Below, piece after piece: positions 956 to 44,645 of a stretch of DNA of 64,000 nucleotides. Position 1 is the first letter of the stretch; every line of letters begins with the position of its first letter. The position numbers were made by a program, and so were the translations under genes. The stretch comes from Cinnamomum chago. Lineage: Eukaryota > Streptophyta > Magnoliopsida > Laurales > Lauraceae. Location: NCBI GenBank assembly GCA_038049695.1, contig CP142458.1:42873501-42937500 (forward strand), given 5' to 3'. The notes under the pieces were generated by a model. That model worked only from the letters and a program-made list of their open reading frames with translations. It was not told the DNA's origin and did no database searches.

Positions 956-980
956 AACTAGCCGTTGGCAACTTTTTGGC

Positions 981-3424: not shown

Positions 3425-3428
3425 ACCC

Positions 3429-3734
3429 ATGAAAGAACTTTTGAAGAAAGTTGCTAAGTTAAATTCAAAATTCAAAAGTCAAGTAAAGGGAGAAAATAAG
3501 AAGAAAAGAAAAGTGAAACAATCCCCTAAGAAGAAAACTCACCAACATCAAAAGACAAATCACCATTCCAAGCTAAATTTAGTAAAATCTAAATATCATG
3601 GTGATAAGTCTAAATTGAAAATTTATCAAGTTAAATCTCCTATAGTTGGTGAGAAGTCCAAACTAGACCTCAAAGTTCAACCCTCCCAAGACCTTAGGTG
3701 GATTCCAAAAGTTATCTACTTAGTCAAACCTTAA
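3429..3734 (+). CDS. Lysine-rich ORF, possible gag tail
   Basis: A 101-aa ORF starting just after the gag stop, very rich in K, S, Q and H. The preceding tail has the same composition, so this may be the original gag-pol continuation detached by a stop codon. No domain was recognised. It could equally be chance in an A-rich stretch. Confidence 0.35.
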   Translation: MKELLKKVAKLNSKFKSQVKGENKKKRKVKQSPKKKTHQHQKTNHHSKLNLVKSKYHGDKSKLKIYQVKSPIVGEKSKLDLKVQPSQDLRWIPKVIYLVKP

Positions 3735-3740
3735 GGCCTT

Positions 3741-5325: not shown

Positions 5326-5330
5326 TGGAT

Positions 5331-5933: not shown

Positions 5934-7888
5934 TGTTAGGTCTTTTGTATTTGCAATTTGATGGATGCATTTGCATATTGGCATCATTTGAATTCACACA
6001 CATGCATTGATTTAAAATATCTTGAAATCTAGTTTTACCCATGCATAGCTTTTAAGATTTGGAAAAGCTTTTGTTTTATGCATGTTTTGGTTTTAAACTT
6101 GGATGCATTGGTTTTAGAACCCAAAACTCTTTTGAAAACCTAATTCCTTGTGCATTATATTTGGAAAATCATGTTAGGTATTTAGGTTTGAGCTTTGCAT
6201 ACATTCATTACAAAAAGAATCATTTTGTATGCAATTTCATTTGAAAAGAGTTGTTTTCAAATCAAGCTAGCCTTTGGTTTTAATCTTGTGAATCTCTTTA
6301 GGCTTTGTGTTTCTCATGTTTTTAAACATCTTAGAATACCTTAAAACATGTTATTTAAGCTTGATTTAGTGGCCAAAAAATCCACCAAAGAAAAACTTTG
6401 AAAATGGAAAAAGTTGGAATTTTGGCCCAGGGACTCGCCCGACAGTGTCGTCGGTCGACCGAGCCCTGTGTCTCGGTCGACCGAGAACACTGCAGGGCAA
6501 ATGGACAGTTTTTGAACTGTTTCAGGCCAACGGTCAGAAATATGACCGTTGTGCTTTCTCGGTCGACCGAGACCTGTGTCTAGGTCGACCGAGAACTAGC
6601 CGTTGGCAACTTTTTGGCTATAAAGTCCATTCTTTTCCAACCTTCTTGGGTGTTGAACACATGAACCCTTGAGAGCATTTTGGAGCCATTGAAAGGGGAT
6701 AAAGTTGGAAAGGCTAGAAGGTCATTAGGAGAGCTAAAGCTTGGATCAATGAGTTAAACAACCAAGTAAGCTCTACCTTTTGTTAATCATAGTTTTCATG
6801 TTTTGCTTAAGCTATTGGTAAATGGTTTTGTACATGATAACTATGATGTGTAGAATCCTTTCTTCTTCTAATCTTTGGTCTAATTAAGATTGGATTCTTC
6901 ACATTAGGTTTCAATCCAAGTTGTTTTTTAAAACTTACTTAATCATGCTTAGCCAAAGTCTTTGATTTCCTTTAATGCATGATTCTTTGTCTTGGTTGAA
7001 ACTTGCTTGTTGTTTTCATTCATTTAAACATTAGTAAAATCTATTTGTTTTTGAAAACAACATTGCACATGCATCACATGTTCTAAGTTAGTCTTTTTCT
7101 TACAACTTGTGATTCTTGATTTTCATATCATAAACAAGTTATTAAACATACATGTGATTTGCATTAGACTTCATTCAAATCTTTTATGAGTCTTAAACTT
7201 TGAAATGCCTTGGGCATACATTTGATTAAGCTTCCTTTTTAATCTTGATTGAAGTCATCACACACACACCTCATTAGCATACATCTTTGCATTCTTAGAG
7301 TGTTTGTGTGAGTTTGTTATTCACTTTCAAATCCGCCTATTTTAAGAGGCAATTACATTGAGCTAAAATTGTATCTCTTAGAGTGATCTTTTGTGAAGAC
7401 ACTTTCTTTGAGAAATCTTTATTTGTAAAGGTTATTGCTAAGCCTAAGAAAAGCAACTTGTAAGGTTATTGCTTAGCCTAATAAAAGCATATTGTAAGGT
7501 TATTGCTTAGCCTAAGAAAAGCATATTGTAAGGTTATTGCTAAGCCTAGAAAAGCACATAGAGAGGTTGTTGTTTAGCCTTGAAAAGCAACTTTGGAAGG
7601 GTTATTGCTTAGCCTAGTAAAAAGCATAATTAGTGGAATCCGGTGGGGTGTTGGAGACACAAGCCGGTAGTGGATGTAGGCACGTTGGCCGAACCACTAT
7701 AAATATTGTGTTGTGGTGATTGCTATGTGGTGATTGTTTTTGTTTTAGCTTCCGCATATTGATTGATTTATCATCACATGTGACTAGTTTAGTTTAAGAA
7801 TTAAAATTGGTTTAAATTGGTCACAATTGTAGCACACCCTATTCACCCCCCCCCCCCCCTCTAGGGTTAGGATCCTCGTGGACTTTCA
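5934..7888 (+). repeat. 3' LTR of the Sirevirus-like element
   Basis: Near-identical to 296-2249 (offset 5638, then 5639 after a one-base poly-C difference). It is followed directly by the target duplication GAGGC at 7889-7893. Confidence 0.93.
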
Positions 7889-15906: not shown

Positions 15907-18299
15907 CCCACCTTCACAAGTAGAAAGGAAATCAATCTTTTTTCTAACTTTCCATTGCACATATATTTTAAAAAAGAGACAGTTTTTAAAATGCCGTGAA
16001 AGGCGATTTCATTTTGTTTCTCGTGAAATGCAATTTTGTGCAGTAGGAGGCGATTTACGCCGTAGAAGGCGATTTTGTGCCGTGAAAGGCGATTTACAAA
16101 TCTCATCAATGAAGAAAGACAAGAAATATGATTTTTTTGTCTCTTAAAGAAAATAAAAAATACAACAGAAAAGTGAGAAAGGGAATCTGACTTCTTAGGA
16201 AATTGCGGGGACTCGTTCAGATCGACGGTCGCAAGTCATGTATGGACTTCGCCATCGTCCTTCAGATGAGAACATGCGATGCTTCGATTCATTTGGTTTG
16301 GCTTGGACCTCAGTTTTTTTTTAGAGGATAAAGACCAAGGGAAGGTCCTATATCCAATAAAAAAACAAAGAGACGGACTGAAAAGCCACGTCTAGGCCAT
16401 GTTGAATAGGAGAAAAGAGGGCTTTGCCTTGGGGGGAGTGCCCCCCAAGGGGCTTCAATCACCTTGTGGTGTTTGTTGTAGCAAAATTTCTTCAAAGTAG
16501 GAGAGCTTGTTTGTGCCGAGATTTATTCGAGAATTCCTCAGGATTTTTCTCTCTCTCTGATCTGTTCTTCTTGGAATGCTTTCCTATTTATAGGCCTTTG
16601 GTAGCCATTTAGGAGGGTTTATGAGCATTGATGGCTTTAAAGCTTCACGACGGGAGGAGTTACAAGTTTTTATTTCTTGATTTTGTAACTCCTTTTTCCT
16701 TGAATCTAATTGGCCGATGGAGGATGATGGGCATTTAATCGCCTTTAATCTCCATGATGAGAGGAGTTTCATGGCTTTAATGCCATGATGGCTTTGACTT
16801 GTAACTCCCATTCTCTTGAATCTGATTGGACTGTCCAAAATAATGATTTAATGACCGCATTTAGTTGGGTCAATTAACAGCATTAAGTGGTCATCGGGGA
16901 TTTGAAGAGTTGCGGGCCGTGCCGCGTCTTTTGGAATTCTTCTTGCGATGATCGACGATGGATCTTCATGTTGATCGATGTCGGATGATCATGCAACTTC
17001 AGACATAGATTGCTAACAGCGGGCCGGTACCATCTGTCTTGTCGATTTCTCGATCAGTCGGGCAGAAAGTGTACTTTCTTGGTCAGCCGGTTGGCGATCT
17101 TGGAGCGATTAATGAGGATTTCATTCTCTTGACGGCGGATCCGAATTGTAGGCGGAGATCAGTCGTTTTCGAGCATAAAAAATCAGATTTTTGGAAGACT
17201 ACAAGGATTGGAATCCCCAAAACGCGAAAAGGATCGAAAAACGGGCCTTCCGACGGAAATCCGGCTACCCGGACTTCTAGGGTCGCCGGCGACATTTCCC
17301 CTTTGGTCGCCTTTTGTTCTGCCGTTTTTCGAGCTTTTTCAGTCCTTTTTTCTCCTGTATTTTTCTTGACATTTTTTCTCAGTTTTTGGCTTGATTCTCC
17401 TGAAGAAAAACCAACGAGAAGTCGTGCAAAACCGGAGCACAAAGTTTCCTATTTCTTAGAAAAGTCGAAGACTTTGTAGCCGATTTTCCGTCAAGAGTCG
17501 AAACTAGGTCAAACGATGTCGGAATGACCTGAAATCTGAGGTAAAGCCTCCTAAGCAGTAGATAGGACCGACCATGGGCATTGGTTTGAGTTTTGAATCC
17601 GTTTGGGGTCCCGTCGCTGCTAGGCTTGATTTCTACACGAGGAAGATATCGCGCTTTGATGTGCGATCAACCGATGTTCAATTAACCTGAAATTTGACAG
17701 GGAGCCTATTAGAGTCATTTTGAGATGATCCATTAGCTCCGATTTGGATGTCATGGTCCCAGGGTGCTCCGCCGCCGGTAGCCTTAATTTTGTTTCGGAG
17801 CGTCAAAGTCGGGTCAAACGTTGTCGGAATGACCTGAAATTTCATGTGCAGCCCTTTTGAAGCATGTTGAAGCCGCCCATGTGCTCTGTTTGATGAGTAA
17901 TGGTCCCGGTGGTTCTCATCGCCGAGAGACTTGATTTTTTTTCGGAGCGTCAAAGTCGGGTCAAACGTCGCCGGAATGACCTGAAATTTTACGTGGAGCC
18001 TTTTGGAGGTATTTTGAGACCATCCGTGGGCTCTAATCGAAGTTTTAATGTCTTCAACGCCGTCGCCACCAGGAGCGCCTGTTTGGCTGCCGGAGGAGTG
18101 AAGTTGGGTCAAATGATGTTGAAATGGCCCGAAACTTCATGTGAGCCCCTCTTTTGGCTATCTTGAAGGATCTTGCAGTTTTTCAAGTTATTCTGACAAG
18201 ATCTTATGCTTCAAGCAGCATTGCCTGTTTTGTAATAGGATGCAGCTTCAAGTGGCTTCTTGATGTTGAAGAGGCAAAGTGATATTTTTTGTGTCAACA
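15907..18299 (-). repeat. 3' LTR of the Tat-like element (minus strand)
   Basis: Starts TGTTGACAC at 18299 on the minus strand, immediately after a PPT. Contains about five 148-bp units (17505-18130), a CCTATAAATAGG core promoter near 16590, a G-rich/C-rich hairpin at 16429-16452 and short GCC(N6)GGC hairpins at 15990-16095. An inverted, diverged copy lies at 32660-35993. The exact 3' end is uncertain: shared sequence stops around 15907. Confidence 0.7.
17505..18130 (-). repeat. About five tandem units of near 148 bp in the LTR
   Basis: Each unit carries GTCAAACGnnGnCGGAATGACCTGAAAT or a variant; copies start near 17510, 17655, 17812, 17959 and 18107. The related LTR at 32660 has the same array in the opposite orientation, so it is an old feature of the family. 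Confidence 0.75.
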
Positions 18300-18313
18300 A
18301 AGCCCCCACGAGG
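18300..18313 (-). other. Polypurine tract of the Tat-like element
   Basis: The minus strand reads CCTCGTGGGGGCTT directly before TGTTGACAC, the layout of a PPT next to a 3' LTR. Confidence 0.65.
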
Positions 18314-18499
18314 TACGACGACGAGTAGCCTTTTGAGTCGATGTGCATTGAAGAGAATTTTGAAGGAGAGCTTCTGACTTGACCAAGAGTCTTTGAACAT
18401 TTTTTTTTAATAGCCTTTTGAGTTTCCAAGGGGATTTTATGGTAGTGAGAGGGATTACATACCATCTCAAGGCAAAGTTTTGAAAATGACATGAGGGAG

Positions 18500-19235
18500 T
18501 TGGATTTTGGGTTTTCCTTTTGACCTTGTGAACCTAAGGGCTGTATGTGGCACATCAGGTGATCAAGAAGGATTTTTTGGTTTTTGACCTTGTGACCTAA
18601 CGAGTTGTATGTGGCAGGTTAGGGGGTCACATTTTTGGATTTTTTGGTTTTTGACCTGTTTTTGGATTTTTTGGTTTTTAGGGGTTTCTTTTTCTCTCTT
18701 TTTTGCTCACCATGATAATGAGGTTTATGCAAATCAATATGTTCATGCATTTTTTTTTTTTTTTTTGCATCAAATAAATGGCTAGAATTTCTAGGTCAAG
18801 CCAACACAAGTTTTGGCTTGGACAAAGTTTGATTGGTTTTGACCAAATTGGGTTGGAATTGGTCAAACTTTCGTCAAGGGTTTCCTAGCATCTAATGCAT
18901 GACAACTTTCCTTTTATGCATGTTTTTTTTTTTTTGTAAATTGAATTGGAAATATGATGATGCATCTTGAAGGTCTTTTGCAAAATTTGGAATTGGAGCT
19001 CGCAGCAACGTTCAGCCCTTTTCCATTCTTATGAGGTCTTTGAGGAGCTTTGCAGGTTTGAAGTTTGGAGCTCGCAGCAATGTTGAGCCCTTCTTCAAGC
19101 TTGTGGAGATTTGATGAGATTGGTTTGATCCCGTAGCAATGTTTGAGTTCAGACTTCCTTTGAGGATGCTCCATTGACTATGAGCTTGTAGTGGTGTTGA
19201 GCTCATTTTCAAGCTTCTTATCTTCTTCGGGTTGT
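18500..19235. repeat. Degenerate tandem repeats before the antisense gene
   Basis: Two near-60-bp copies of TTTGACCTTGTGA...CTGTATGTGGCA lie at about 18525-18640 with TTTTTTGGTTTTT runs. About four 55-75-bp copies of GGAGCTCGCAGCAAnGTTnAGCCC lie at about 18995-19210. There is no coding potential. Repeats between pol and the 3' LTR are common in Tat elements. Confidence 0.55.
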
Positions 19236-20689
19236 TTCCCTTTTCTCCAGAATTGTCACGGAATCATGCCAAAATTTCGCTAGAATTTTTCTTTAGCAAA
19301 ATTTTGTCACTTTAATGATTGATTTTTTTTTCTTTCCATCCTTTGCAGGTAGTTCCTCCAAAACGAACAAGGGCAAAGAGCCTGTTACTGATGCACCTCA
19401 TCGGTCTACCAGGTCTCCTAATGTGGTCGTACAGTAGGCTTGGGAGAAGGTCCAGTTTGTGGAGAGAAACTTGGAAGAGTGTGACCCCCTCAACCGCAAT
19501 GAGATAAGATAGCGATTGATCGCCCTCAAGGATGAGGAGTTTTACAGGATTATGGTAAGCAACCGTCCTCGGGTCATGGACGATCAAAGCATTGTGCCCA
19601 AGCCTACCTTTTTCTTTAGTGATGCAGTCCCTGACAACTTGACGTACCAAAGAAGGTGTTTTCAGTTCTCTTACACATTTGATGGTAAGGAGAGAACTAT
19701 TTCTACCAGGTCGACCTTTGATCGGACTGTATCAATCATGAGTCTTTCTCCCACGTGTCCCAAGAGGGAGGATCCTCCAAGTTGGGTGACGAGGACCAAT
19801 GTGATAAAGACCAGGGCTTTTGTTGGCGGCCCTTCCGGATATGCGGAGAAGTTGCCTGTCCGTATGAACATGTTGATGCTCTCCAGTGGCTACCAGGGTT
19901 CTGACCATCCTTCGGTCAATTTGAGACCGGTTGGCCTTGGCATTTTTCGGGGTGACCGCAGCAATTGGATGAAGCCTTTCCGACTTCGTGGCCATTTCAG
20001 TGCTGATTCGAGCTGGGAATAGTGGACTGATCACACCCTGCAGGTTGGTAGAGCCATTTTGAAGGAGGCCGGGATCTTCGACGCAGTTCGCGCTTTTCAG
20101 AAGACCGTGGTTTTCTCTAATGAGGCCTTCATGCCCATGCTAGAGTCATTCCTTCCACAAACCAACACCTTCATTGTGACGAACGGTGAGATTGATTTTA
20201 CTTTGAAGGACTTAAACGTCATCACCGGGCTGCCTATTCTTAGCAAACTCTATGAGGAGTTTATGCCTATCGACAACGTCCTTGAGGTGCAGTCTGAGGA
20301 GTTTAGACTCTTATACTTTTAGCTCGTCGCCTTCTATGATTTTTCCGGTGTAACAGTTGGAAGAATTGTAGCTCCAACTTTTTTTACGGTGGAGAGTCTT
20401 CTGATGGTATGGCCCAGGATGCTAAGGTCAAGAACCCAAGTTTGAAGAAGATCTCCGTCATGCGAGATGACTTTAGGAAGTTCTTCGGGAGTACAGACGC
20501 CATTTATCCTAACATTGCACTGCGGAGAGATCTCACTGTTTACCTCACTTATTGGTTGGGTGAGGCTGTTTTCGCTAAAGGAGATGGAACACACATCAAA
20601 CCGCACTGAATTTTTCCAACTTGTCAAATGGCATTCGGAGATCGGCTTGCTTTGGTGCCAGCCCTTTACTCCTACTTGCTTTGGTGGCA

Positions 20690-21258
20690 TAGTTCTTCTC
20701 GTGATCTTTCAACTGTCGGGATCCATATGCAATCACTTTTCCGTCTTGTATCAACACACAACCAAGTCCAACATTCGAAGCATCGGTAAAAATGGTAAAA
20801 TCGACGCTTCCGGATGGTAAAGTAAGGACTGGTGTTGCAGTCAATCTCTTCTTTAGCTCTTGAAAACTATCTTCACACTTATTTGTCCACACATATGGCA
20901 CATTCTTCCTCCTCAACTTCGTCAAAGGCGACGCAATCGACGAGAATCCCTGCACAAACCTCCTGTAATAGCCTGCCAATCCCAGAAAACTTCTAATTTC
21001 TGACGCATTCTTCGGTCTTTCCCAACTCATAATTGCTTCAATCTTGGACGGATCCACTGATAATCCTTCTTTGGAGATGATGTGCCCCAAAAATGCTACT
21101 TGCTCCAACCAAAATTCACACTTATCGAGCTTCCAATACGGTTGATTCTCTCTCAAGAGTTGCAGTGCTATCCTCAAATGCTCTTCATGCTCTTCTCCAG
21201 TTGTAACAATCCTGGAGGCCTCTGATATTCTACCTTTATCAACTGACAAGTCATACAA
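20690..21258 (-). pseudogene. Second partial RT/RNase H copy fused to integrase
   Basis: Repeats the segment at about 21880-22370 ([14 protein letters not shown] through [17 protein letters not shown] to [16 protein letters not shown]), with several base differences. Upstream it is joined to the integrase CMTCQ region around 21190; downstream it stops at 20690. It is not a standard gene order and must come from recombination. Confidence 0.8.
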
Positions 21259-21336: not shown

Positions 21337-22832
21337 CTACTTCGTACTGTGAGCTTCGATCATAATGTCATTCCTCAAGTCTTCAATATTTGGTACACAT
21401 AGACGGTCACGGTAGTACAAAACTCCATCAACAAAACGGAAGTCAGGACGGTCTGCTATATGCTCTGAAATCTTTGTCAACTCTGGATCTTGCAACTGAC
21501 TATCCTTGATCTTCTGAATGAAAGAAGGCTCTGACACTGTCATGTTAGCTAACAAAACACCCTTCCTTAGTGGCTGCAGGTCTATACTCAATTCTTCAAA
21601 TTGCTCAAAGATACAAGTGGCACTTAGGTTTGCCAAGCCTACAGATTTTCTGCTTAAGGCATCGGCAACTACATTTGCTTTCCCCGGGTGATACTTGATT
21701 GGAAAATCATAGTCCTTGATATATTTCATCCATCTCCTCTGCCTCATGTTCAATTCCTTTTGAGAAAATAAATATTGTAAGCTGCGGTGGTCGGAGTGGA
21801 CTTCGAACTTCTCTCCATAGAAGTAATGTCTCCACATTTTTAATGCGAAAACAACCGCTGCTAACTCAAGATCATGGGTGGCATAGATCTTCTCGTGATC
21901 TTTCAACTGTCGGGATCCATATGAAATCACTTTTCCGTCTTGCGTCAACACACAACCAAGTCCAACATTCGAAGCATAGGTAAAAATGGTAAAACCGCCG
22001 CTTCCGGATGGTAAAGTAAGGACTGGTACTGTAGTCAATCTCTTCTTTAACTCTTGAAAACTATCTTCACACTGATCTGTCCACACATATGGCACATTCT
22101 TCCTCCTCAACTTCGTCAAAGGCGACGCAATCGACGAGAATCCCTGCACAAACCTCCTGTAATAGCCTACCAATCCCAGAAAACTTCTAATTTCTGATGC
22201 ATTCTTCGGTCTTTCCCAACTCATAATTGCTTCAATCTTGGACGAATCCACTGATAATCCTTCTTTGGAGATGATGTGCCCCAAAAATGCTACTTGCTCC
22301 AACCAAAATTCACACTTGTCGAGCTTCACATACAGCTGATTTTCTCTCAAGAGTTGCAGTGCTATCCGGTCCTGGAGTACACCAAAATGTCATCTATGAA
22401 TACTACTACAAACTGATCCAGATACTGTGCAAATATTTTGTTCATCAATGCCATGAACACTGCCGGTGCATTAGTCAACCCAAATGGCATCACTAGGAAC
22501 TCATAGTGGCCATATATGGTCCGGAAAGCTGTTTTCAACACATCTGATTCTCTGACTCTCAATTGATGGTAATCGGATCTCAAATCAATCTTCGAAAAGT
22601 ATGAAACACCTTGCAATTGATCAAACAATTCATCTATTCTTGGTAATGGATACTTGTTCTTGATGGTCACTTGATTCAATCTTCTGTAACCTATACACAT
22701 TCTCATGGAACCATCCTTCTTCTTGACAAACAAGACTGGAGCTCCCCATGGTGAAATGTTCGGTCTCACAAATCCTTTATCTAACAACTCTTGCAATTGT
22801 ATCTTCAACTCTCCCAATTCTGCCGGAGCCAT
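21337..22832 (-). pseudogene. gypsy reverse transcriptase, RNase H and partial integrase
   Basis: RT fingers and palm (22832-22362) carry [14 protein letters not shown] and the active-site [14 protein letters not shown] deletion of about 25 nt after SRT shifts the frame; the thumb and RNase H follow (22350-21337) with the self-acting [13 protein letters not shown] (the first RNase H Asp is Tyr here), [18 protein letters not shown], and [17 protein letters not shown]. It continues into the start of the integrase zinc finger (IEAHSTK), then [13 protein letters not shown] and CMTCQ at about 21350-21200. Confidence 0.8.
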
Positions 22833-23461: not shown

Positions 23462-24752
23462 CTACCTCTGCATCATCTCTATTGACCGCATAGATTTGCC
23501 CTCGATGTTGTGGCCTATTTGGAGCTTATTGTGGCCTGCCTTGTTGTGCATTCCTATTCTGTTGCGGTGCACGCTGATTTTGGTTCTGTCCCTGTTGACA
23601 AGCCTGTTGTTGTTGCTGCTGCTGTTGTGGTGCTTGTTGCTAGAGTGGCCTTGCCTGATTCTGGACAACGAACGCATTCAATGGTGGTGTTGGACGTTGT
23701 GCCCCTTGCTGCTGCTGCTGCTGATTCTGTCTATTCTGCCTTGGACAAACTCTCATCTGATGGGTCATGGAACCACATCTGAAGCACGCTCCTGTCAGTG
23801 TGCGGCACTGTGCACTCTCATGGTTCTTCCCACGGTGGGTGCAAACCAAGGGATTCTGAGTATTCGGTTCTGTCCTCTGCTTCTTGTTCTGTTGACTCTT
23901 CTGCTGGTAGTTCTACTGATGAGCTTGTCCCTTGCCTTGGACTCTAAGGATCTTGATGTGAAAGTTCTCAAACTTATAGGCCCTCTTGACAGCTTCATCG
24001 AAAGTTGCAGGTGGCACTACTCCGGTAGCATCTCTCTCAATGAAAGGGTTAAGTCCCTCTAGGAACTTTGCAATTTTCTTCTCCACTGTATCCACCAATT
24101 CCGGAGCATATCTAGACAATCTCTCGAACTTAGTGAGGTTTTTTAGGACTGTCATACTCCCTTGCACAAGCTACTGAAATTCTATTGCGTTCTATCTCTT
24201 GATGTGGGCGGGTACATACTTATCACGGAACTGCCTCTTGAAGTTTACCCAAATCTCTGCATCAACCATAGTCCTGTATTCCTCCCTAATTGTCTTCCAC
24301 CTTCTGTCCGTTGTATCGCTAAAGAGAGATGATGCTAGTTTTACTCTTTCTCCCTCGGTGCATTGGAAAATCTCGAATATGTTCTCCGTATGCTCTAGCC
24401 AATCATCTGCAGCTAATGGATCCTCTATTCCAAGAAACTCTTTCGGAGCCCTCTTCCGAAACCGCTCAAATAATGCATTTGGGTCATGTTGCCTCTAATT
24501 GATGACAATAGCGGGTTGAGGTTAAACCGGTTCAGGCCTTCTCTGTAATACCTCTAACAACTGCCTCTGCATTTCTGCCAATTCTCTTGCATGATCTTCC
24601 TCTCCCTTAAGCATTTGCTCTTGCAATCTAGCTTGATTCTCATTGGCCTGACGCTGTTGGTCAAGCATTGCATGCATCATTTGTTGGAATTGATTTGGCG
24701 TGTTGTTATCAACCCTATCCTCTTCAAGTGGCCCTGTAATAAGAGACGACAC
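23462..24752 (-). pseudogene. gypsy gag with CCHC zinc knuckle
   Basis: Pieces in several frames: N-terminal RQANENQARLQEQMLKGEED (24752-24522), a retrotransposon-gag-like segment (24167-23913: YAPELVDTVEKKIAKFLEGL), and a nucleocapsid CX2CX4HX4C (CFRCGSMTHQMRVC, about 23790) followed by a glutamine-rich stretch (CAG/CAA repeats, 23600-23730). Several frameshifts and stops break it. It would have encoded the structural capsid protein. Confidence 0.75.
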
Positions 24753-25802
24753 GATGACTCTCCTGATCCAGAAGTCCCTCCCACCATTGCTGAAGAGACG
24801 TCAGAGGATGCTGATGAGCCTCCGGAAAAGAGGAGTCGAGAGGAAGAAACCGTTAATGAAGGTATGATTCCTCCTCTTTCTCTTTCCGCTTCTTTCATTG
24901 AAGTTTCTTTTTTTTATTCGCCTTTTCTCCTTTTTTCGGTGGAAGATGAGGACTTGGTGATGCCTGAGGTTCCGGCTGATGAAGCAGTGATGGATCTGAT
25001 TGCGGCATCTGAAGAAGAACCGAAGGACTCTAGAATGAGTCCAGAATCTTCACCTGGTATGACTTCTTTATATTTTCTTTTTTTTTCTTTTTTTTTTGTG
25101 CTATCATTTGTTAACATGTTGCTTGTTTTCTTGTCAGCTGACTTGCCACAGGATTCCGACGATTTCAAGCCATCCATGGATGCAGCCTTTGACGACGCTT
25201 CGGATGAACTCATGGAGGCAGAAAGTATTCCGCCGATCGTCGAAGAAGGTATTTGTAGCAATAACCCTGATGATAATGATTTTTTCAACAAGATCATATT
25301 CATACCCTTTTTTATTTTGTTTTGCTGGCAGATTGTGAGGTAGCAGAAGAAGTTCCTCCATCTTTCTCAGTGCCAGAGCAAGGGATGCCAGCAGTTGAAC
25401 CAGAAGTAGGGACTTCTTTTTCCAGTTTTGATGCAGCGGAGATGGAATCTTCTGAGCAGATTCCTTCGCTAGTGTCTCCGATTAGAAAAAGCTTAATGAT
25501 CACGCCTCCAGCAGGACATGACACGGGCAGTCGACCAACGGAGGGGGGCGAGCCTTCATCCAGGCCAACTCTTGAGTACGTGAAGAAAGTGTTGAAGAGC
25601 ACTTTGAGCTCATGGTTAAAAACTCTTTCTTCTGGCCATTTGGAAGCCGGCTTTGGCAAGATCAAGCATGTGTTGGAAATAGGTGGACCTCATGGATAGG
25701 TTTTCAAAACATTTTGACTCACTTGACTCAGGGATCAACTATCCAGAAGGCTACAAAACCCAATCCAGGATGCAATCCCTCAAACTCATAAATCATGTAC
25801 AG

Positions 25803-27283
25803 CAATAGAACCTATCTAGAAGATAGAAAACAGCACCTAAACATGCAACCACGAAATCTACAACATATAAGGATGTAGATTATACCTTTGGAGCTTAGTA
25901 GTGCTCTAATGGAGAAGTTGATCGCTTTCTTTGATGATGAACACCTTCACTAATCAAATCAGAATCTCTAAGACCTTATGATCTTCCACACTATTACCCG
26001 TGTCAGATTCTCTTTTCTCAAGAAGATTGTGGAATCTCCAAGAGAAAACCCTAAAGGAAACTTGAAGAGAACTAGAAGAGGGAGAGAGGGATATGGGCGT
26101 GTGCAACACCTGCACTCTATGGGCTGGGCATGAATCTCCTCTATGGTATGGTGGTCGTCCAAGCCTCTTCTCTCTCTCTCCCTCTATAGATTCATATAAC
26201 CTCCTCTTGTTAACTAATTGAAATAGAAGTCTTACTTCTCTAACAATTAGTAACTCTCTTGTTTCTAACAATTAGTAACTTTCTAATAACTTGGGCTAGC
26301 GTGGGGATCACTAGGGATTCCTTAGAAAGCTGGCTCCAACTGGGACACGCGACCCCACATCTCATATGCAATCCGGGCCCACAGTTAATTGTAAATAACA
26401 CCACTATATAAATGCAATTGCACTCCAGTCTTAGGAATAAATTACAATGAAGACCCTAAACTTCACAATTACCACAAGTAGGCCCCTCTATCATTATCCA
26501 TGAATCAATTGGAATAAATCTATCACATCCAATCTTAGATCCACATCTTATTATCCTTGAGCCCCAATTAATCACAGTGATCATCAGTACCATCCAATTA
26601 ACTCTTAATCAAAATGGGTGCGCACTTACTAATGATAAATCCATTAATTGGCACAAGGGGATAATGTAGATAGATTCCATCTTGATCATTACATGTTCCA
26701 AATGTCCTACCACCACGTGCCCAAGACACCGAGGTGTTGACCTATAGTTGGCCTCACTCATTGGTGACTCAAAGCAAATGAATAGATAGAAACTTGAGTT
26801 GATCAATGTCTCAGGATTGAGAGCCTATTGATAGGGAATTATGAGAGTAGTCCTTAAATCGAGATAGTATTTCATAAGATGCTTCTCATGGTCCTTCAAT
26901 ACATCCAATATACCAACACTATAATCTAGAATCATACATTCCGATGATCGAGACAGATCACACTATCTCATAGTGATCAAAGTGCTGCAACCTTGTCAGA
27001 TGAGATGCCCAGTCTCATCACTGGTTGTGAAGATATTTTTAAGTACAAGATTTGTGACACATGTCTCCCGTATGTGGATCTCATCCATATACATATATCA
27101 CATCTAATATACTAAGGGGACCCGGTTCATCTCATGAACCATTATGTCATATGTATTGGTCATGTGCATTAAGTAATAAAACACCATTCATCTCATGAAA
27201 GGAAAGCATGATTTTATTGATTAATAAAGAAATTAATCAATTTTTTACATCAACTGATTGATTAAGACCATACAATCTAACAA
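25803..27283 (-). mobile_element. Solo copia-type LTR inside the antisense gene
   Basis: A 1481-bp block between two 9-bp direct repeats CATGTACAG (25794-25802 and 27284-27292), splitting an otherwise continuous reading frame. The minus strand begins TGTTAGATTG at 27282, has TTTATATA near 26407, a transcribed-leader-like stretch, and ends near CTATTGCTGTA. A related LTR copy lies at 45156-46012. The exact terminus on the left is ambiguous (see findings). Confidence 0.7.
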
Positions 27284-28137
27284 CATGTACAGGACATCCT
27301 TGCTGATAGCGAAGAGGTCGGTCTGGACATTGCAGGTGCGAAGGCTTTCGTTGATAAAGTCATAGCTCTAGGGAGCAAGTGGAATGAAACCAAGGGCTTC
27401 CCAAGTGGTGACTTCTTCAATGAGATATTTTTGAAGCCTTCTGGCGAGGTCAAGTCTGAGCTGAACGAGATCTCGCGGACTCGGAAGCAATTCGTTCGAG
27501 AGAGGAACGTTACCGAGTTGGCTATCATTGCGCTGACAGAAGATCTGCGCCGTGTTGATAAAGAGGTCGTTGAGACCAGGCAGCGTCTTGAGCTATTGGA
27601 GGAACAAGCTGCTGCAAAATGGGCCACCATTATGGAAGCTCGTGCCAGAGAAGGAACTCTGATTCGCCAAGTCGAGGTGGCTGAGAGCAATCTCCAAAGG
27701 AAGACTCAAGAGTACGAGCAATGGCAAATTCTTTGGGAAAAGTTTCCCCGTGCTGCAGATGGATCGCGGCGTCCTACCGAATTTTATGGGAAGATTTTGA
27801 AAAAGCATGGCCTGGAAGCTTTAGAGGCTAAGGCCAAGAGTCTGCTTGAGGAGTTGAGTCTTTGGTTGAAGACAATGTGAGACTGAGCTCTTGATTCTTG
27901 TAACGAACCTTTTTCTTCCTTTTTCGGTACCCGTGTATACACACATATATTTTTTGGTACTCTTTCTCTTGTAGTGCTTGTGGACATTTTTTTTAGCACT
28001 TCTCTTTTTTGTATTCCGTCCTTTCACTCAAATTCTTTTGTGATAAATTCAAGCAATAGTTAAATGGGAATGTTTGTTGGGAGATTTGATCAAAAGTTTG
28101 TCATTTTGTAAAAAACCTTTTATCAAATGGTTGTTTT

Positions 28138-28612
28138 GGCGTGAAAGCCGAATTTTCAGATGGCATAGAAGCCGAATTTGGGTAGGCATGGAAGACGGAA
28201 TTTTGTGGCGTAAAAGCCAAAATTTGGGATGGCATGGAAACCAGTTTTGTTTGTGGCATGGGAGCCAAAATTTTTGTTTGTGGCAATGATAGCTAGGATT
28301 TGTTTTTTGCATGGAAGCCAAAATTTTGTTTGTGGCATTGATAGCCGATTTTGTGGCGTTTATAGACAATTTTTTTGTGGTATTTATAGCCGATTTTGTG
28401 GCGTTTATAGCCGATTTTTGGCATGAGAGCCAATTTTTTTTTAAAACCGAGTTTTATTTTGTTGGCATGAAAGCCAAATTTTGAATTGGCATGAGAGCCA
28501 GGTTTTGTGGCATTTGTGGCCGATTTTGTGGCGTTGATAGCCGATTTTTGGCATGAGAGCCCAGTTTTGGCATTTATAGCCGATTTTGGCATAAGAGCCG
28601 GGTTTTGGTTTT
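28138..28612. repeat. About 20 mini-hairpin units GGC-N6/7-GCC
   Basis: Units such as GGCATGGAAGCC, GGCGTAAAAGCC, GGCATTGATAGCC and GGCGTTTATAGCC recur every 20-40 bp, separated by AATTTTG-type spacers. The 3-bp GGC/GCC ends are kept while the loop varies. Overlapping ORFs on both strands are translations of the repeat. Confidence 0.7.
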
Positions 28613-28619
28613 AAAAAAT

Positions 28620-29060
28620 GCAAGTATCAACTAAAAGTCGCCTCCCTGCTGAATGGTCTTGCAAGTATCGATGGAATGTCGCCTCCTTGCTCATTCGGTT
28701 GCGAGAATCGATGGAATGTCGCCTCCTCGCGAATTTGGGTGCAAGTATCGACTAAGAGTCACTTCTTTACTCTTTTTTTTTCAAAGATTTTGGTTTTGTG
28801 GGTATCGATTGAATGTCGCTTCCCCACGATTTTTGAAATTTTGAGGTCTTTTTTTTTTTTTTTAGACCTCGGTTTTTGTTTGAATTTTGGGTTTGTGGAT
28901 ATCAACTGGAATGTTGCGTCTCCACGATTTTTGAAATTTTGCAAGTATCAACAAAGTGTCGCTTTCTTGCGATTTTGAAATTTTGGAAGTATCGAATGGG
29001 GTTCGCATCCTTCCGATTTTTAGGTTTTGCGAGTATCGACTGAGCGTCGCGTCCCCGTGG
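28620..29060. repeat. Tandem units with covarying 5-bp outer stems
   Basis: Nine units of the form N5-TATCGAC-loop-GTCGCnTC-N5'. The outer pairs are GCAAG/CTTGC (28661, 28941), GCGAG/CTCGC (28701), GTGGG/CCCAC (28798), GTGGA/TCCAC (28895) and GGAAG/CTTCC (28985); from start to end each spans 30-31 nt. Units 1, 4 and 9 have decayed stems. It lies between the integrase stop and the end of the antisense gene. Confidence 0.75.
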
Positions 29061-29423
29061 TTTCTAAAAAAAAAGTTTTTGTTTAAAGACATGAGGGTCG
29101 TGAATTTTGACTTAAGACCGTTCTTTGTTGTAAAAGTCAGGGTGGACTAGGGTGAAAATTCTTGAGTCCTGATTTTGTTTCAAACCATGAATTTTGGGTT
29201 CAAGGATTGAAAATTTGGTTAAGTTTGGGAAGAGGCTCCTAAACTTGGATTTTTGGATTTTTCTTTTTTTTAACAATGAAACTATGACAGTAAGCATTGT
29301 TTTGAAATTTTAGAAATCTCAACATAAGGACGAAAAATCTAAAAGAGGCGGGTTTGACAAGCGAGTACCTGAGAATAGGCTTTTGGCCATGCAAGCATTG
29401 CTCTGTCCCAGTGGCGTAAGTCC

Positions 29424-30896
29424 TCAAGGGTAGTATCGCTTCAGGAACTTGTCGTTGATAGGCAGCATACACCTGTCGCCCTCCATGTTTAGAAGTGCGT
29501 ATGCGCCGCTAGAGAAGACTTTGTCAATGATGAAGGGTCCCTCCCATTTTGGTTCGAATTTGCCTTTGGATTTGTGAGCGAAAACCATTGGCCTTTTTAC
29601 TGCGAGAACCAAGTCTCCCTTTTTGTAGGCACGTTGCCGGACCCTTTTGTCGAAAGATCCTGCCATGCATGCTTGGTACAGCTCAATGCTTTGTAGAGCT
29701 TCGAGCCGTCTTTCATCGAGATTGTCCAGTTCTTGGAGTCTCAATTTGACATTGCTTTCTTGCGTCATGTCATTTTGCAAAGATACCCTTAAGGAATGAA
29801 TTTGTACTTCTAAAGGGACAACAGCTTCGCACCCATAGACCAAAGAGAATGGTGCTATGGGTTGGCCCTCGAACGGTGGTTCGATAAGCCCACAAAGCTT
29901 CATGTAATTTGTCGCCCCAGTCTCTTTTATGACTAAATACCATTTTCTTGAGGATTTTGCAGAGTGTCTTGTTGAAGGCTTCGACTAGTCCGTTTGCCGC
30001 CGGATTGTTTGGAGTCGAAGGACAACTTTGGATTTTGTATTTGTCGCAAAACCTGTAGAATCAGTGATCCCGGAATTGCGGTCCGTTATCATGGATGAAT
30101 CTTTTTGGTATGCCGAAGCGACAAATAATGTTGATGCGCAAGAATTGAAGGACTGATGAGGTCTTCATTTCGCTGAGCGCAAATGCTTCTGACCACTTGG
30201 AGAAATAATCCGTAGCGGCGAAGATGAAACGATGACCTTTGCTTGACGGGGGAGAGATAGGACCTATGATGTCCATACCCCAAGCTTCGAACAGCCATGA
30301 GATTGATGTGGGATGTAGCCATTCCGGAGGCATGTGAACATAATCTCCATGAATTTGGCATTATTGGCAGCGTTTAGCAAATTGCATAGCGTCTGCTACC
30401 ATGGTAGGCCAATAATAACCTAACATTTTTATCTGATTGTAGAGCTTGGGACCGACCTGATGGGCTCCACAAAGACCAGCATGAACTTCTTTGAGCGTTT
30501 CCTCAGCCTCTTGTTGTGACAAGCAGCATAGAAGTACTCTGTTAAAGGACTTTCTATAAAGCATTTTTGAAGGTATATCCAAATGAAAGTTTGGGGCTCG
30601 TTTTTGAATGCTTACCCGTTCTTTTGGATCTTCAGGGAGGATTCCGAACATGGTGTAATCAATGAACGGATCTCTCCAGTCGCTGATTGGAGGTTTAAGG
30701 ATGGAGATCCGACTTCCGGCCAATTGGTGGCATTTAGCAACTGCTTGGTGTGTGTTAAGAGGGGGAGAATCCATCTTTGACACACTGTAATTTGCATGTT
30801 TTCCCCTTCCTGGATCGCCATGGATGCTACAAGTCCGGCCAGGGCATCTGCACGGATGTTCTCACCTCTGAGGAGATTCCAGGGTTTTGCCATCAC
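29424..30896 (-). pseudogene. Tat-type gypsy RNase H end and integrase
   Basis: On the minus strand: NIRADALAGLVASM (RNase H tail), integrase HHCC zinc domain (EEVHAGLCGAHQ ... RCQ, stop, CQIHGDY), core with the three acidic residues of the DDE triad readable (AWGMDIIGP, HDNGPQFRDH, and VEAFN in a different frame near 29970), then PFSLVYGCEAVVPLEV and a C-terminal FEPKWEGPFIIDKVF segment ending RYYP and a stop at 29424. Stops and frameshifts separate the parts. Upstream RT, protease and gag are missing beyond 30899. Confidence 0.8.
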
Positions 30897-38934: not shown

Positions 38935-41900
38935 ATGAAGGAAGAAAACAACAATCAAATTAACCAAAGTAGTATTGGAAAGGTCAGTTCCTTTGTTTGT
39001 TTGTGTTTTTTTATTTATTTTACCTCTTTTTCTAATTTTTTTCTCAACTGCAACGAGTTGCAGGTTCTCGATATGTACAGACTTTCAGGTCCGAACAAAT
39101 GGGCTTTGTTCGGACATTAAGGTCCGAACAAAATCCATTTGTTCGGACCTTAATGTCCGAACAAAATCCATTTGTTCGGACCTGAACTTCCGAACACTTA
39201 CAGTACTAAACATTTATTATGTATTTTTTGTAGGCCTCTACACAAGAGAGTCAGGTTGGATCGGAGTTTGTCATGGATTATACCAGTGAGTTTATAACTC
39301 AAGAGGTCTGTCTGATTGTGAATTTATTACTCAAATTATAAATATTTGTTCCTAAATTAATATAAAAATTGTTTACTGTAGATATTTCACAGTCGCGATT
39401 CGTTGATCAGTTGGGCTCGTGGTGTAGGACGGAAAAATGGGTTTGTCATTGTGATAAAGGTTTCAAATGCTGCTCGGATAGGTGTCAAACCTAGAGTACT
39501 CCTTGCATGCGAGAGAAGTGGACAATATAAGCATGAAGAGGGCCAAAAGCGAAAAAGGGTCAAACAAACCGGTTCAAAAAAATGTGGATGCCCTTTCTCA
39601 TTAAAGGGCATAAAGTTAGACTCAAATGATGGTTGGATGTTGGAGGTCACATGTGGCGTGCATAATCATTCGGCAGTAGAACATTTAGAGGGGCATTCTT
39701 TTGCAGGTAGATTATCAAAGGAGGAAACACAGTTGTTGGTTGATATGTCCAAGAGCATGGTTAGACCTAAAGAAATTTTGGTTACGTTGAAACAAAGAAG
39801 TGAATTAAACGTAACCACAATGAAGACAATATACAATGCACGCTACAGATATAAAGTTAATGATCGGGGTGGAAGAAGTCAGATGCAACAACTGCTTGGG
39901 AAGCTAACAGAGCATAATTACATTGAATGGCATAAGACTTGTGAGGACAGCGATACTGTAACTGACTTGATTTGGACGCACCCAAGCAGTTTAGATTTAT
40001 TACGTGCATTTCCACATGTTTTGATAATGGACTGCACTTACAAGACCAATCGTTATTGCATGCCTCTATTGGAGGTTGTTGGAGTCACATCCACAGACAT
40101 GACTTTTTCTGTATGCTTTGCATACCTTCATGCAGAACGCGAAGATAATTATGCATGGGCATTGGGTGTATTGCGGGAAATTATTGGTGATGGTATTCTT
40201 CCCGATGTCATTGTGACGGACAGAGAACTGTCACTCATGAACGCCATTAACAGAGTATTCCCGAGTGCAACTCATTTATTATGCAAATGGCATATTAATA
40301 GAAACGTATTGGCAAGATGCAAAAAGTTGTTTGAAACTAAAGAGAAATGGGACAGGTTTATTATGAGTTGGAATATGTTAGTGTCTTCATCAACAGAGGC
40401 AGAGTTTGGTGAACAACTACGTAAGCTAAATCAAGAATTCAGTACGTATCCTGCTGCACTCAACTACGTGAAGGGTAATTGGTTAGATCATTACAAGGAA
40501 AGATTTGTTTCCGCATGGACAGACAATAGTATCCATCTTGGGAATACTACATCGAACAGGTACTTTTAAAAAAAATCCAATTATTTGAGCCATATGCCTA
40601 TTAATTACTATGTCTCACCTCTTAACAATCATATGCAGGGTTGAGAGTTCACATGCACAGCTTAAGAGGCAGCTGGGATCGAGTCAAGGAAATTTTGAAG
40701 CGGTTTGGACTAAAATCCACAATTTGCTTGAGTTGCAGCATACCGGTATCAAAGCTTCATTTGAGAAAAGTAAGACAATTGTGCAACATAATTTCAAGCC
40801 GGCCGAATACAAAGAGCTTCGTGGTAATGTCTCTAAGAATGCACTTGAGAAAATCTTAACAGAAACCAAGAGAGCCAACCTAGTTGGAATTGACGCCATT
40901 GTTTGTGGTTGTGTTATTCGACACACACATGGATTACCCTGTGCGCATGAGATTGCAGAATATATAAGTCAAGGGCGGCCTATTCCTCTAAGTTGCATAC
41001 ATCCGCATTGGTGTAAGCTAGATATGTTGCCTACTGCCCCGTCAACAAGTTCTTCTATGGGCCTGGATTGTAAGGCTGATTTGCAGTTACTGGAAAAACG
41101 GTTCAATGAATATGATTCCACAAGAAAACTGCAACTTCTAAAGAAGATACGAGAACTATCAAAACCAGAAAGTACTCATTTGATAGAACCCGAAGTAAAA
41201 TCAAGAACAAGAGGTAGACCAAGTATGAAAGTTGACACATCAACTCGACGAGATCCAAGCGCGTTTGAGTTGGTATCGTCTGCACAGGATAGCTACTCTC
41301 CTAAATCAGTTGCAATGACAGAAGTTACAGATAAAGGACGGCTAAAATGCAAACCAAAGAGAAGAGAAAAGATTAGTGCAATTCGTACGAGGTCAAGGAG
41401 CATTAATAATTATGTTCTCTCATTTCCCGTGGGGTTGAGGCCTTACATTCAACATGTAAAGGACGTCGCAGCTGATGGTAACTGTGGATTCAGAGCCATC
41501 GCTGGTTTGGTTGGTCTAGCCGAGGATGAATGGAGACAAGTTAGGAGAGATTTATTACAAGAGTTGCTTGCACATGTAGACCACTACAAACAATTATATG
41601 CGGTGGAGAACAGAGTTGAGGAATTGGTGGAAGCATTATCATACTATGATGACAACCCAGGCTTGGACTATTGGATGACTATGCCTGACATGGGGCACCT
41701 CATAGCGTCTCGCTATAATTTGGTATTATACCACTTCAGCATAGAACAGTGTCTGACTTTCCTCCCATTGCGGTCTGTGCCTGTGCCGACACCTTCTCGG
41801 AACGAGCGAACAATAGGTTTTGTTAATCGGAATCATTTTGTTCAATTATTCTTAGTACCTGGTCATCCAATTCCGCCTATTGCAAATAAGTGGAGACAAT

Positions 41901-42013
41901 TTCATCACTCTTGTGCGAATGGTTGGGAGACTCCATACAGGGATCGGATTGTACAATTCAAACAGCTTGTAACTCCAGATGTATCAACATGTGAGACAAT
42001 TGATTTGGATTGA
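38935..42013 (+). CDS. Mutator-like transposase fused to an OTU cysteine protease domain
   Basis: Four exons join in frame: 38935-38982 (ATG, donor AAG/GTCAGT), 39234-39305, 39382-40559 and 40639-42013, giving about 890 aa with no internal stop. Exon 3 holds a FAR1/WRKY-GCM1-type DNA-binding segment (CGCPFSLKGIK ... VTCGVHNHS) and the MULE catalytic core: VLIMDCTYKTNRY (first Asp), DVIVTDRELSLMNAI (second Asp) and LLCKWHINRNVL. Exon 4 has a SWIM zinc finger (CGCVIRHTHGLPCAH), a basic linker, then an OTU domain: DVAADGNCGFRAIAG (Asp/Cys) and FVNRNHFVQLFL (His). It would cut and join element ends in the nucleus; the OTU part could remove ubiquitin or a ubiquitin-like tag. Introns 1 and 3 are short; intron 1 carries the palindrome array. 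The leader (38650-38934) is strongly C/T-rich. Confidence 0.9.
39081..39200. repeat. Left subterminal palindrome array (GGACCTnAAGGTCC type)
   Basis: Alternating AGGTCCGAACAAA and TTGTTCGGACCTnA segments (about five half-sites between 39088 and 39193) lie in transposase intron 1, 504-623 bp from the left end. The right-end counterpart is at 44468-44645. Confidence 0.75.
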
Positions 42014-42544: not shown

Positions 42545-44420
42545 TCAGTTGTTCCTTCCCCTTGTTGACCTGCTGCGGGTGTAAGTCTGTGAACTCATGT
42601 GGGGATGTCGAATGGTTCGTTGAGCATCGGCAATGGACATTCCCCGTAAAACGTGGGCAACCTGATTCACATGGGTATATAGTCCCCGTGGATCTTCAAC
42701 CCAATGGTCCTCACCCCTTTCAATCACTTCATCAAGAATTAATACTGCATCCGAATTACGATACTCGTAGTCCACCATATCGCTTGACTGTGCATCGTCT
42801 GGTAATGCCGCGAAATTAGAGTGATGATTTGGGTTTTGTAATATCCGGTACGAAATTTGTCTGTACCAATCCATATACCCGGGAACACAATCTGCAGGAC
42901 GCCTTACTGGTTGACTACGGTTCAATGCAGACAGTAGGTGATTAGGCCATCCCTCCCAAATTTGATTCATGTATTGATACGCGATATGGTAGTCACGGGC
43001 AGTCGGACCCCGCGTAGCGCGAATGGGGGCTAATGGCGGTGGAGGAATAGTTTGTACTCTCCCAAACTGTCTGAGCACCCTATCCGGATGATAAGGCTCA
43101 ACAACATCCATGCACTTGATGCATCCACAGTAGTATGCAACCTCGTTGAAAGGGTGATAGCGCCTAACATCACGATATGGGTCCCAAGTGACCTGAAAAT
43201 TGTGAATCCAAGTATAAGATATGAAAATACATAATACGGAATGATGACTTCATGTGATAGAAAATGAGTAAGAAAATTTGCGTAATTACCAAATCAGTGC
43301 TCATGGAATCAAGTCTCTCTCGTAATGACTGTAAAGGCGCAGACTCCCTACGAGGTACCCATCGATGGACCCGGAGTTGATTGGGCTGATAGTGAATGTT
43401 TGGAGTTGGAGCCAAACATTCGAAGTGCTCGTACACCCAAGCTTCAAGTAGAGTCAGGTAACCGGCAATTTGTTTAACTTCACGCCGGGTTGCTAACCCC
43501 AATTGCCTGTATAAGTATGCCAGTGCAGCAGTACCCCATGCATATGTACGTACGTTTTCCAAATCCACCAGATGTGTAAGAAATATGATCGGCACCCTTA
43601 TGCCACTCTTGTCTGTGAACAACGTACATCCCAGTAAGTACAGAAGGTAAGCTCTGACTGCACAATCAACCATCTCCTCTCCATCATCGTCAGACATTCC
43701 ACCAAACCTTTCCCGTAGCCACTCCAATCTAACAGATTGGCCCCGCACCTGGATCAGCTCATCATGTGCCTCTATGGGTTCTACTCCTAGTGCATCAACA
43801 AGGAGTGCTTGAGCTGCCTCATATGACATTCTTTCATTATACGAGACAGTCCGCCCCGTCACTGGGATGCCTATGATGGATGCAACATCATCTAAAGTGA
43901 TGGTCATCTCACCAAATGGCATGTGAAAGGTGTTAGTCTCAGGTTGCCACCTTTCCACAAAACCCGATACAATGATCTTATTGACAGAGCGGTATGATGC
44001 AGTAACTAAGGGAGCCAAACTGGATCTGGACATCCATTGCCTGAACCTATCAGACCCATTCAATTGCCATTGCCACAATGGCACTTTCTGACCATGGCTG
44101 AGACACTTCAGTGGTCCTCAATCCTGCAGTCAACAATTGATACATCATTATTGAATAAATTCACAACTTAATCAATCAATCAAACTTCATAGGAAACAAA
44201 CGAAACGCACCTCTCCACTCCAAATAAACCCAGCTATATGTGTATCAAAGCTGGTCAATAACGACCTATCCCGTGGCCCATGAGATGGTTGCTCTTCCAT
44301 CTCTGGTTGTTCTTCAACGTCCTCCTCACGAAGAACAGGTTCTTCTACCTCTTCCACTCGGTGGCGACGCCTTCTGTTTGAAGCAGTAGGTCGCACCCTA
44401 GAAGAGCTCGGTTGGTCCAT
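42545..44420 (-). CDS. PMD (plant mobile domain) gene of the Mutator-like element
   Basis: Minus-strand exons: 44420-44211 (MDQPSSSRVRP..., acidic/arginine-rich, ending SFDTHIAGFIWSGE), 44123-43290 and 43192-42545; phases fit. PMD features in order: GPLKCLSHGQKVPLWQW, the ETNTFHMPFGEMTITLDDVA core, TYAWGTAALAYLYRQLG, LEAWVYEHF, DRVLRQFGRVQTIPPPP and YMDWYRQISYRI, ending with a short basic tail: about 563 aa if read through. One TGA (44120-44118) interrupts just inside exon 2, after the acceptor; it is probably a mutated CGA. A 5' intron from a GTAAGT near 44743 to an acceptor near 44424 would contain the right palindrome array. Role in the element is unknown; cellular PMD proteins act in silencing and meristem maintenance. 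Confidence 0.8.
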
Positions 44421-44467: not shown

Positions 44468-44645
44468 AAATGTTCGGATGTTTAGTTTCGAACAAAGTGA
44501 AATTGTTCGGACCTTCACTTCTGTTCGGACCTGAAGGTCCGAACAAATCACTTCTGTTCGGACCTGAAGGTCCGCACAAATCACTTTTGTTCGGACCTGA
44601 AGGTCCGAACAAATCATTTTTGTTCGGACTTTCAGGTCCGAACAG
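44468..44645. repeat. Right subterminal palindrome array
   Basis: Five near-35-bp units, each with TTCGGACCTGAAGGTCCGAA or a variant joined by CAAATCACTTnTG, lying 510-687 bp inside the right end and in the leader/intron of the PMD gene. An ORF across it (44345-44722, minus) is repeat translation. Confidence 0.8.

Follow-up and report, generated by a model that had tools for sequence, protein, structure and literature searches.

The locus considered here, at 28620-29058 of a window of 64,000 nt (the whole stretch of DNA analysed, on contig CP142458.1), raises the question of why nine tandem units that differ in sequence should retain the capacity to form the same hairpin. Macas and colleagues are said to have described, in 2009, 3' UTR tandem repeats of Ogre and other LTR retrotransposons of the Tat lineage. 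Passages of PMC7004042 present such repeats, located after pol and ahead of the 3' LTR, as common in Tat elements, hypervariable and a source of satellites, and the main text of that paper contains neither 'hairpin' nor 'secondary structure'. Parts of PMC6317226 report expanded non-coding regions with tandem repeats, as well as PMD and Transposase_28 ORFs. A literature search, thin in its coverage of subscription papers, returned no account of covarying tandem hairpins in such elements; tandem repeats at this place in Tat elements are known, and their being covarying hairpins appears to be new.

Organization and pairing of the units

All nine units occur where the initial annotation had placed them within 28620..29060, each spanning 30-31 nt from outer start to outer end (30 nt in eight units, 31 nt in the unit at 28895) and separated by variable linkers (Table 1). 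Each forms a two-step hairpin, with 5 bp, an internal loop, 4 bp and a hairpin loop of 5-6 nt. The sense strand of the array is taken to be the minus strand because the integrase end of pol, at 29424-30861, reads on that strand. In the sense orientation, a unit consists of a 5' outer arm (5 nt), GANG, a 5' inner arm (4 nt), the loop (5-6 nt), the 3' inner arm, AUA and the 3' outer arm. The linkers of the window copy are 59% A and 5% G on the sense strand. Between units 5 and 6, a further hairpin (28843-28873) lies within the hypervariable linker; its 7 bp, GAGGTCT/AGACCTC, pair perfectly around a T-rich loop. An Rfam search of 27800-29500 gave two matches, both outside the array and both below the gathering score.

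Table 1. Positions of the hairpin units and of neighbouring parts of the element in the window.
Feature	Positions	Strand	Remarks
Hairpin unit 1, last in sense order	28620..28649	-	Fully paired, with two G-U on sense
Hairpin unit 2	28661..28690	-	Pairing analysis, covariance model
Hairpin unit 3	28701..28730	-	At the majority state, one compensated pair is the sole difference from unit 2
Hairpin unit 4	28741..28770	-	Decayed in the window copy; fully paired at the window-like majority state
Hairpin unit 5	28798..28827	-	Pairing analysis, covariance model
Hairpin unit 6	28895..28925	-	31 nt; inner stem CAAC/GTTG; pairing analysis, covariance model
Hairpin unit 7	28941..28970	-	Missing from the 22 young-clade copies
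Hairpin unit 8	28985..29014	-	GGAAG/CTTCC and CGAA/TTCG; pairing analysis, covariance model
Hairpin unit 9, first in sense order	29029..29058	-	Outer pair 3: G-C in window-like rows, A-U in young copies
Second array, short GGC-loop-GCC hairpins with A-rich linkers	28100..28608	-	Directly downstream in sense; TRF
3' part of pol	29424..30861	-	Integrase zinc-binding domain 30361-30861; integrase C-terminal part 29424-29984
Opposite-strand gene, last exon	27281..27880	+	Coiled-coil-like by eye; convergent with pol
Opposite-strand gene, earlier exons	24740..25700	+	Cut off by insertion; exon limits inferred
Match to LTR and adjoining 3' region of a young copy (L076)	16098..18659	-	blastn pieces, 74-77%

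The five outer pairings that had been reported (GCAAG/CTTGC, GCGAG/CTCGC, GTGGG/CCCAC, GTGGA/TCCAC and GGAAG/CTTCC) are all present, as are the three variants of the inner stem (CGAC/GTCG, CAAC/GTTG and CGAA/TTCG). In the window copy, 70 of the 81 pairs are Watson-Crick, against an expectation of 55.1 when whole 3' arms are dealt anew among the units (p = 0.00015 on the plus strand and 0.00005 on the minus strand; 0.043 for the inner stem alone). The remaining 11 pairs comprise six G-U and five mismatches when read on the minus strand, or five G-U and six mismatches on the plus strand. Counted over the units, 93.8% of cells are paired, compared with 82.5% after shuffling, and changes on both sides of a pair are found at six of the nine pair positions. 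The covariation score of these units is 0.54 (0.28 shuffled, with 0 of 500 shuffles reaching the observed value), and it is at most 0.16 when partners are slid. Poor pairing had been ascribed to units 1, 4 and 9. This does not apply to unit 1, whose two irregular pairs are G-U on the minus strand; units 4 and 9 do miss one pair each in the window copy, and both pair at the majority state of related copies. Units 2, 3 and 5 do not maintain the innermost inner pair, the one beside the hairpin loop; there it is C.A on the sense strand (G-U on the plus strand), also at the majority state.

The surrounding element and its relatives

Several features of the sequence around the array support its assignment to a Tat-like Ty3/gypsy retrotransposon, with the array between pol and the 3' LTR as originally proposed. 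The pol end carries a Ty3/gypsy integrase with Integrase_H2C2 (E = 5e-6, above the Pfam cut-off) and SH3_Tf2-1 (E = 0.003, below the cut-off), and no chromodomain is among the families found in the scanned pieces, a combination that is not unique to Tat. No RT piece belonging to the array-bearing element turned up in the window. Both the window and the young copy L076 have an extra ORF beside gag-pol, namely the opposite-strand gene downstream of pol, and tandem repeats follow pol ahead of the 3' LTR in the window, with a purine run and an LTR-like start in L076. In this young copy, represented by the overlapping stretches L075 and L076, the sense order is the pol end, the hairpin array, a second GGC-loop-GCC array, the opposite-strand gene, the purine run and the LTR-like start TGTTGACACC. 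In L076, about 3.5 kb separate the end of the hairpin array from the LTR start, and the end of that LTR is inferred from the point at which L076 and L077 diverge. The window copy probably had the same order, now broken by insertions, and the segment at 16098..18659 is possibly the 3' end of the array-bearing element.

The opposite-strand gene of L076 converges on pol and appears to be spliced. Over 199 aa, the protein sequence of the last exon in the window shares 48% identity with the opposite-strand ORF L076:1701-2846, and 24904-25672 matches L076:2301-3038 at 69%; the pieces of this gene in the window and in L076 match no Pfam family above the cut-off. As for the second array, the motif GGC-N5..8-GCC occurs 14 times in 28061-28615 and 20 times in each of two young copies (L075/L076 and L077), against shuffled means of 0.07-0.17; in L075/L076, the 20 occurrences fall within 650 nt (shuffled mean 0.07). 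One unit of the second array in L075/L076 (L075 1320-1960) has a compensated stem, TGGT/ACCA, in place of TGGC/GCCA.

Other Tat families in the same genome were approached through PMD (PF10536) and PF04195 (Transposase_28). Loci L096-L103, of 3-4 kb each, have neither an integrase match nor a match to the unit model. Nine further loci found via PF04195, L104-L112, are referred to here as Retand-like, a label taken from sections of PMC6317226. They resemble the present element in that, in eight of the nine, the C-terminal part of integrase (pieces of 36.6-43.6% identity) and the PF04195 gene are convergent. The unit model matches none of the nine, though a very diverged array could escape it. 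Tandem repeats on the palindrome TGGGCGCCCA (GGCGCCCA in L105) are found in L105 (2135-2312), L106 (2154-2298), L107 (2104-2280), L109 (2099-2327) and L112 (2352-2601); these lie upstream of the zinc-binding part of integrase, and their listed periods are multiples of 3.

The array is like the known Tat 3' UTR repeats in occurring in the same element type, at the same place and with a unit number that varies between copies. It is unlike them in that they are described as hypervariable, in the portions of the literature cited above, whereas the unit here is a conserved, covarying RNA hairpin. A second point of comparison is the clusters of palindromes with secondary structure in Sirevirus LTRs (Bousios et al. 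2016, as relayed in part by PMC10760457), which likewise consist of repeated palindromes in a plant LTR retrotransposon and are predicted to fold strongly. According to the same partial account, however, those belong to Ty1/copia elements, lie inside the LTR and are linked to cis-regulation and small RNAs, while the present units are short bulged hairpins of the sense RNA in a Ty3/gypsy element, outside the LTR. The gypsy-type integrase end, together with the distance between array and LTR in L076, rules out a Sirevirus palindrome cluster.

Compensated change and constraint among related copies

All copies compared come from one genome, the source assembly of 1.06 Gb in 14 contigs; the window has the retroelements and Pfam content of plant DNA. 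A first look gave 1987 array candidates, of which 40 were scored: the window and its 39 nearest copies, the best-scored of the 1987, at 90-93% identity to the window. The alignment used below has 77 rows, the window and 76 further copies (77 loci were tried, and L061 was dropped as the array is absent there; L001 and L048 are the window itself). Loci were reached by two further routes. From 150 integrase matches, 20 were picked by hand, followed by 18 more from the same list; another 20 were chosen among the first 100 listed of 4118 places, on one contig, with an intact inner stem required. These 4118 places are exact genome matches to the core pattern, for which a reversed control gave none. 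The array is present in 19 of the 20 integrase-selected loci, and in 20 of the 20 loci selected by pattern and hence by intact inner stem. By identity to L075, the rows fall into a young clade (more than 94%, 22 copies) and a window-like set (55 rows, window included). The latter is mixed, and unit 7, absent from the young clade, drops out of comparisons between the sets.

A covariance model trained on the window units, which therefore matches the window by construction, gave 28 matches in 151 kb from 20 sources, with nine in the window, eight in L076 and 11 in L077. Across the loci of one sample, the number of model matches ranges from six (L114) to 13 (L115), in stretches of 1.2-1.4 kb that may cut some arrays. 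The best 150 of 251 model matches are fitted to the model and are kept out of the main argument. Viral contigs, searched with one pattern and two integrase pieces, contained no relative.

At the majority state of the window-like set, 76 of the 81 pairs are Watson-Crick and two are sense G-U, giving 78 that pair, and three are C.A; in the young clade, the 72 pairs comprise 66 Watson-Crick, three sense G-U and three C.A. Units from elsewhere in this genome, taken at the majority state, pair at least as well as those of the window copy. In the window copy, units 4 and 9 look broken, as do the inner stems of units 1 and 7, and all of these pair at the majority state, so that the exceptions are largely departures of the window copy itself. 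Outer pair 4 of units 1 and 9 is G-U at the majority state.

Compensated changes were also counted along a minimum spanning tree that joins the nine units in their window-like majority state. The tree carries eight compensated double changes, compared with an arm-shuffle mean of 1.87 (p = 0.0004), and compensation among the units is thus still significant on a tree. Three further changes, confined to outer pair 4, exchange A-U and G-U on the sense strand, and two others, both at the innermost inner pair, are uncompensated. The compensated changes amount to one or two pairs per step. The same kind of change separates orthologous units: outer pair 3 of unit 9 is G-C in 44 of the 55 window-like rows and A-U in 22 of the 22 young copies, with outer pair 4 G-U in both sets. 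Three outer-stem wobbles hold a majority (in units 1 and 9, and in unit 4 of the young clade), and all are G-U on the sense strand. Below the majority, young copies have outer-stem wobbles of both kinds, for example G-U in unit 3 (9/22) and A.C in unit 5 (5/22).

At the window-like majority state, the internal loop is GANG/AUA in all nine units, with G, A, C or T at N, and its two sides are non-complementary. The window copy departs from this in unit 7 (AAAG), in unit 3 (ATT) and in unit 9, where N is unlike the majority. It is possible that G.A and A-U contacts form across the loop with N flipped out.

Where a difference is called fixed when the majority letter of the window-like set differs from that of the young clade, three of 144 stem sites, none of 56 internal-loop sites, three of 41 hairpin-loop sites and 28 of 149 linker sites are fixed. 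Variant cells per site are of similar order throughout (3.17 in stems, 2.20 in internal loops, 3.27 in hairpin loops and 2.50 in linkers). Stems and internal loops together have three fixed differences in 200 sites, compared with 31 in 190 elsewhere (p = 8e-8), at a similar level of polymorphism (580 structured versus 507 unstructured variant cells). When the hypervariable linker at 28828-28894 is left out, the counts are 3/200 and 12/129 (p = 0.0017), and under a stricter definition, with a majority above 60% in both sets, 26 linker differences are fixed. All three fixed differences in stems keep the pairing, as one compensated change from G-C to A-U and one from A-U to G-U (sense). Few fixed stem differences alongside similar polymorphism are what would be expected if replicating elements need the structure and inserted copies do not. 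Judged from these alignments, the array is constrained in replicating lineages and not after insertion. Among decaying G-C pairs there is no strand bias (152 G-U versus 142 A.C in the window-like set, 18 versus 19 in the young clade), in keeping with neutral decay.

Folding of both strands gives a stronger predicted structure on the sense strand, a contrast that is clear in two young copies and weaker in two old ones. In L075, all eight units are formed on the sense strand in the minimum-energy and centroid structures (z = -5.45, 0/100 shuffles), whereas the antisense strand is at -0.61 (20/100 shuffles). The corresponding values for L077 are -5.41 (0/100) and -1.03 (14/100), and 7 of its 11 units are formed in the sense minimum-energy fold, as read by eye. 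For the window-like copy L013, z is -3.74 on sense and -2.06 on antisense (0/100 shuffles each), and for the window copy -4.19 and -2.15. Over the 77 copies, the mean probability of the designed pairs is 0.534 on sense versus 0.373 on antisense, with sense higher in 64. In context, the antisense strand is favoured for unit 2 (0.63 versus 0.45) and unit 3 (0.27 versus 0.22), and unit 5 is equal. The mean pair probability per copy varies among four young copies (0.89, 0.76, 0.75 and 0.60). In windows of 100 nt, the array of the window copy, which is decayed, is mildly more stable than controls (mean z of -1.53 versus -0.55). The flanks of the array can also pair with one another, as in L075 (about 895-910 with 1316-1330), into a long A/U-rich helix with the entire array enclosed; its duplex energy relative to shuffles has a mean z of -2.75 in the 22 young copies, and of -0.77, hardly beyond shuffles, in the 55 window-like rows.

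Possible explanations, and other features of the window

Compensation among units, conservation of the internal loop, constraint between lineages and a predicted fold that is stronger on the sense strand are established at the level of sequence comparison, and the array is very probably a selected RNA structure of the sense transcript. The initial annotation had left open whether selection or a copying mechanism maintains the hairpin, and the compensated changes between units, the contrast between fixed and polymorphic differences and the strand-specific folding argue for selection. Copying would take the form of template switching or mismatch correction within hairpins, during reverse transcription or DNA replication, with one arm rewritten from the other. 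According to parts of PMC8794818, template switching is able to generate RNA hairpins and to preserve them through compensated changes, and copies differ in their number of units (6 to 13 model matches per locus, 11 in L077), so the region does undergo abnormal copying. Such events may account for single changes. Against copying in general, the compensated changes on the tree come as one or two pairs per step, and three steps show A-U/G-U at outer pair 4. Copying that ran from the outer into the inner arm would also make the internal loop complementary, and GANG/AUA has stayed non-complementary with no fixed difference in its 56 sites. Arm-onto-arm copying would erase a loop of this kind, whereas recognition by a protein or in a tertiary contact would preserve it. 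Nor would copying alone reduce the divergence of stems relative to linkers. As the main cause of the pairing it is thus unlikely. It is less likely still that the arms are binding sites in double-stranded DNA, or a palindromic regulatory region, with RNA pairing incidental. The Sirevirus palindrome clusters linked to cis-regulation (in the portion of PMC10760457 concerned) and the location of the array downstream of the opposite-strand gene are in keeping with that idea. A protein reading DNA would preserve the sequence of the arms, though, and here the arms change while the pairing stays; the fold signal is also stronger on one strand, and the array lies between pol and the opposite-strand gene, outside the LTR.

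The arrays do occupy a convergent gap, and the structure could in principle serve an antisense transcript. It might belong to the 3' UTR of the opposite-strand gene or help to terminate that gene, or it might keep transcripts of the two convergent genes from forming sense/antisense duplexes. For units 2 and 3 the antisense fold is slightly the better one, and L013 lies below its antisense shuffles. In the two young copies, however, antisense folds are near their shuffles, and the majority wobbles of the outer stem are G-U on sense; this account has very little probability. The remaining explanation, a functionless tandem repeat of the ordinary kind in Tat 3' UTRs, descended from a unit that was a hairpin by chance, is in line with the hypervariable tandem repeats common in this region (passages of PMC7004042). 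Drift would break pairs, and the shuffles, the tree count and the contrast between fixed and polymorphic differences, all within one genome, speak against it, leaving it the least probable of the four.

If the hairpins are selected in the sense transcript, the array probably serves, with rather less assurance than the selection itself, as a multivalent docking platform on the genomic RNA of this Tat-like Ty3/gypsy element, with Gag as a possible ligand. It would sit in the 3' part of the full-length RNA, where the linkers, being A-rich and G-poor, would let the RNA fold as beads on a string. Each unit would be a putative docking site whose internal loop is read by a protein within the helix, many units may act together, and template switching may add units. 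Retroviral and Ty packaging signals are multi-hairpin, Gag-binding RNAs, and the hairpins of the 5' leader are few and mutually unlike. The array resembles such signals as a set of cis-acting hairpins in genomic RNA, and it differs in that one hairpin type recurs about nine times, in the 3' part, with Gag binding here putative. In Ty3, a distant relative, the localisation and packaging of RNA depend on UTRs or POL sequences (PMC4974528, in part). The element's own Gag/nucleocapsid is the first candidate for a partner because the array is in the full-length RNA and Ty3 needs UTR or POL sequences; it could mark that RNA for packaging or transport, although we put this forward only tentatively. 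A host RNA-binding protein, acting in export or stability, would be the second choice. With similar reserve, it may be that the units belong to a hitherto undescribed class of cis-acting RNA, sited in the 3' region of the genomic RNAs of plant LTR retrotransposons: multivalent hairpins of the same fold and variable sequence, with a fixed GANG/AUA core, that bind a dedicated protein.

Were the hairpins selected as RNA, the repeats that follow pol in Tat elements would become candidate packaging or transport signals, in elements that fill much of plant genomes, and changes in the copy number of such arrays could be a reason for the ongoing output of tandem repeats and satellites from these 3' UTRs.

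Other mobile elements are present elsewhere in the window. LTR-like direct repeats at 296-2249 and 5934-7888 are 99.85% identical, each with 34-bp tandem repeats, and the ORF between them (2339-3424) has a weak zinc-knuckle match; 296-7888 looks like a recent non-autonomous LTR element. A 491-bp duplication (20683-21173 and 21877-22367, 95.5% identity) falls in the RT/RNase H region of another gypsy element. A MULE/FAR1-type transposase ORF (39382-42013, plus strand) and a plant mobile domain gene (42545-44117, minus strand) are flanked by 33-bp tandem repeats at 39080-39196 and 44515-44644.
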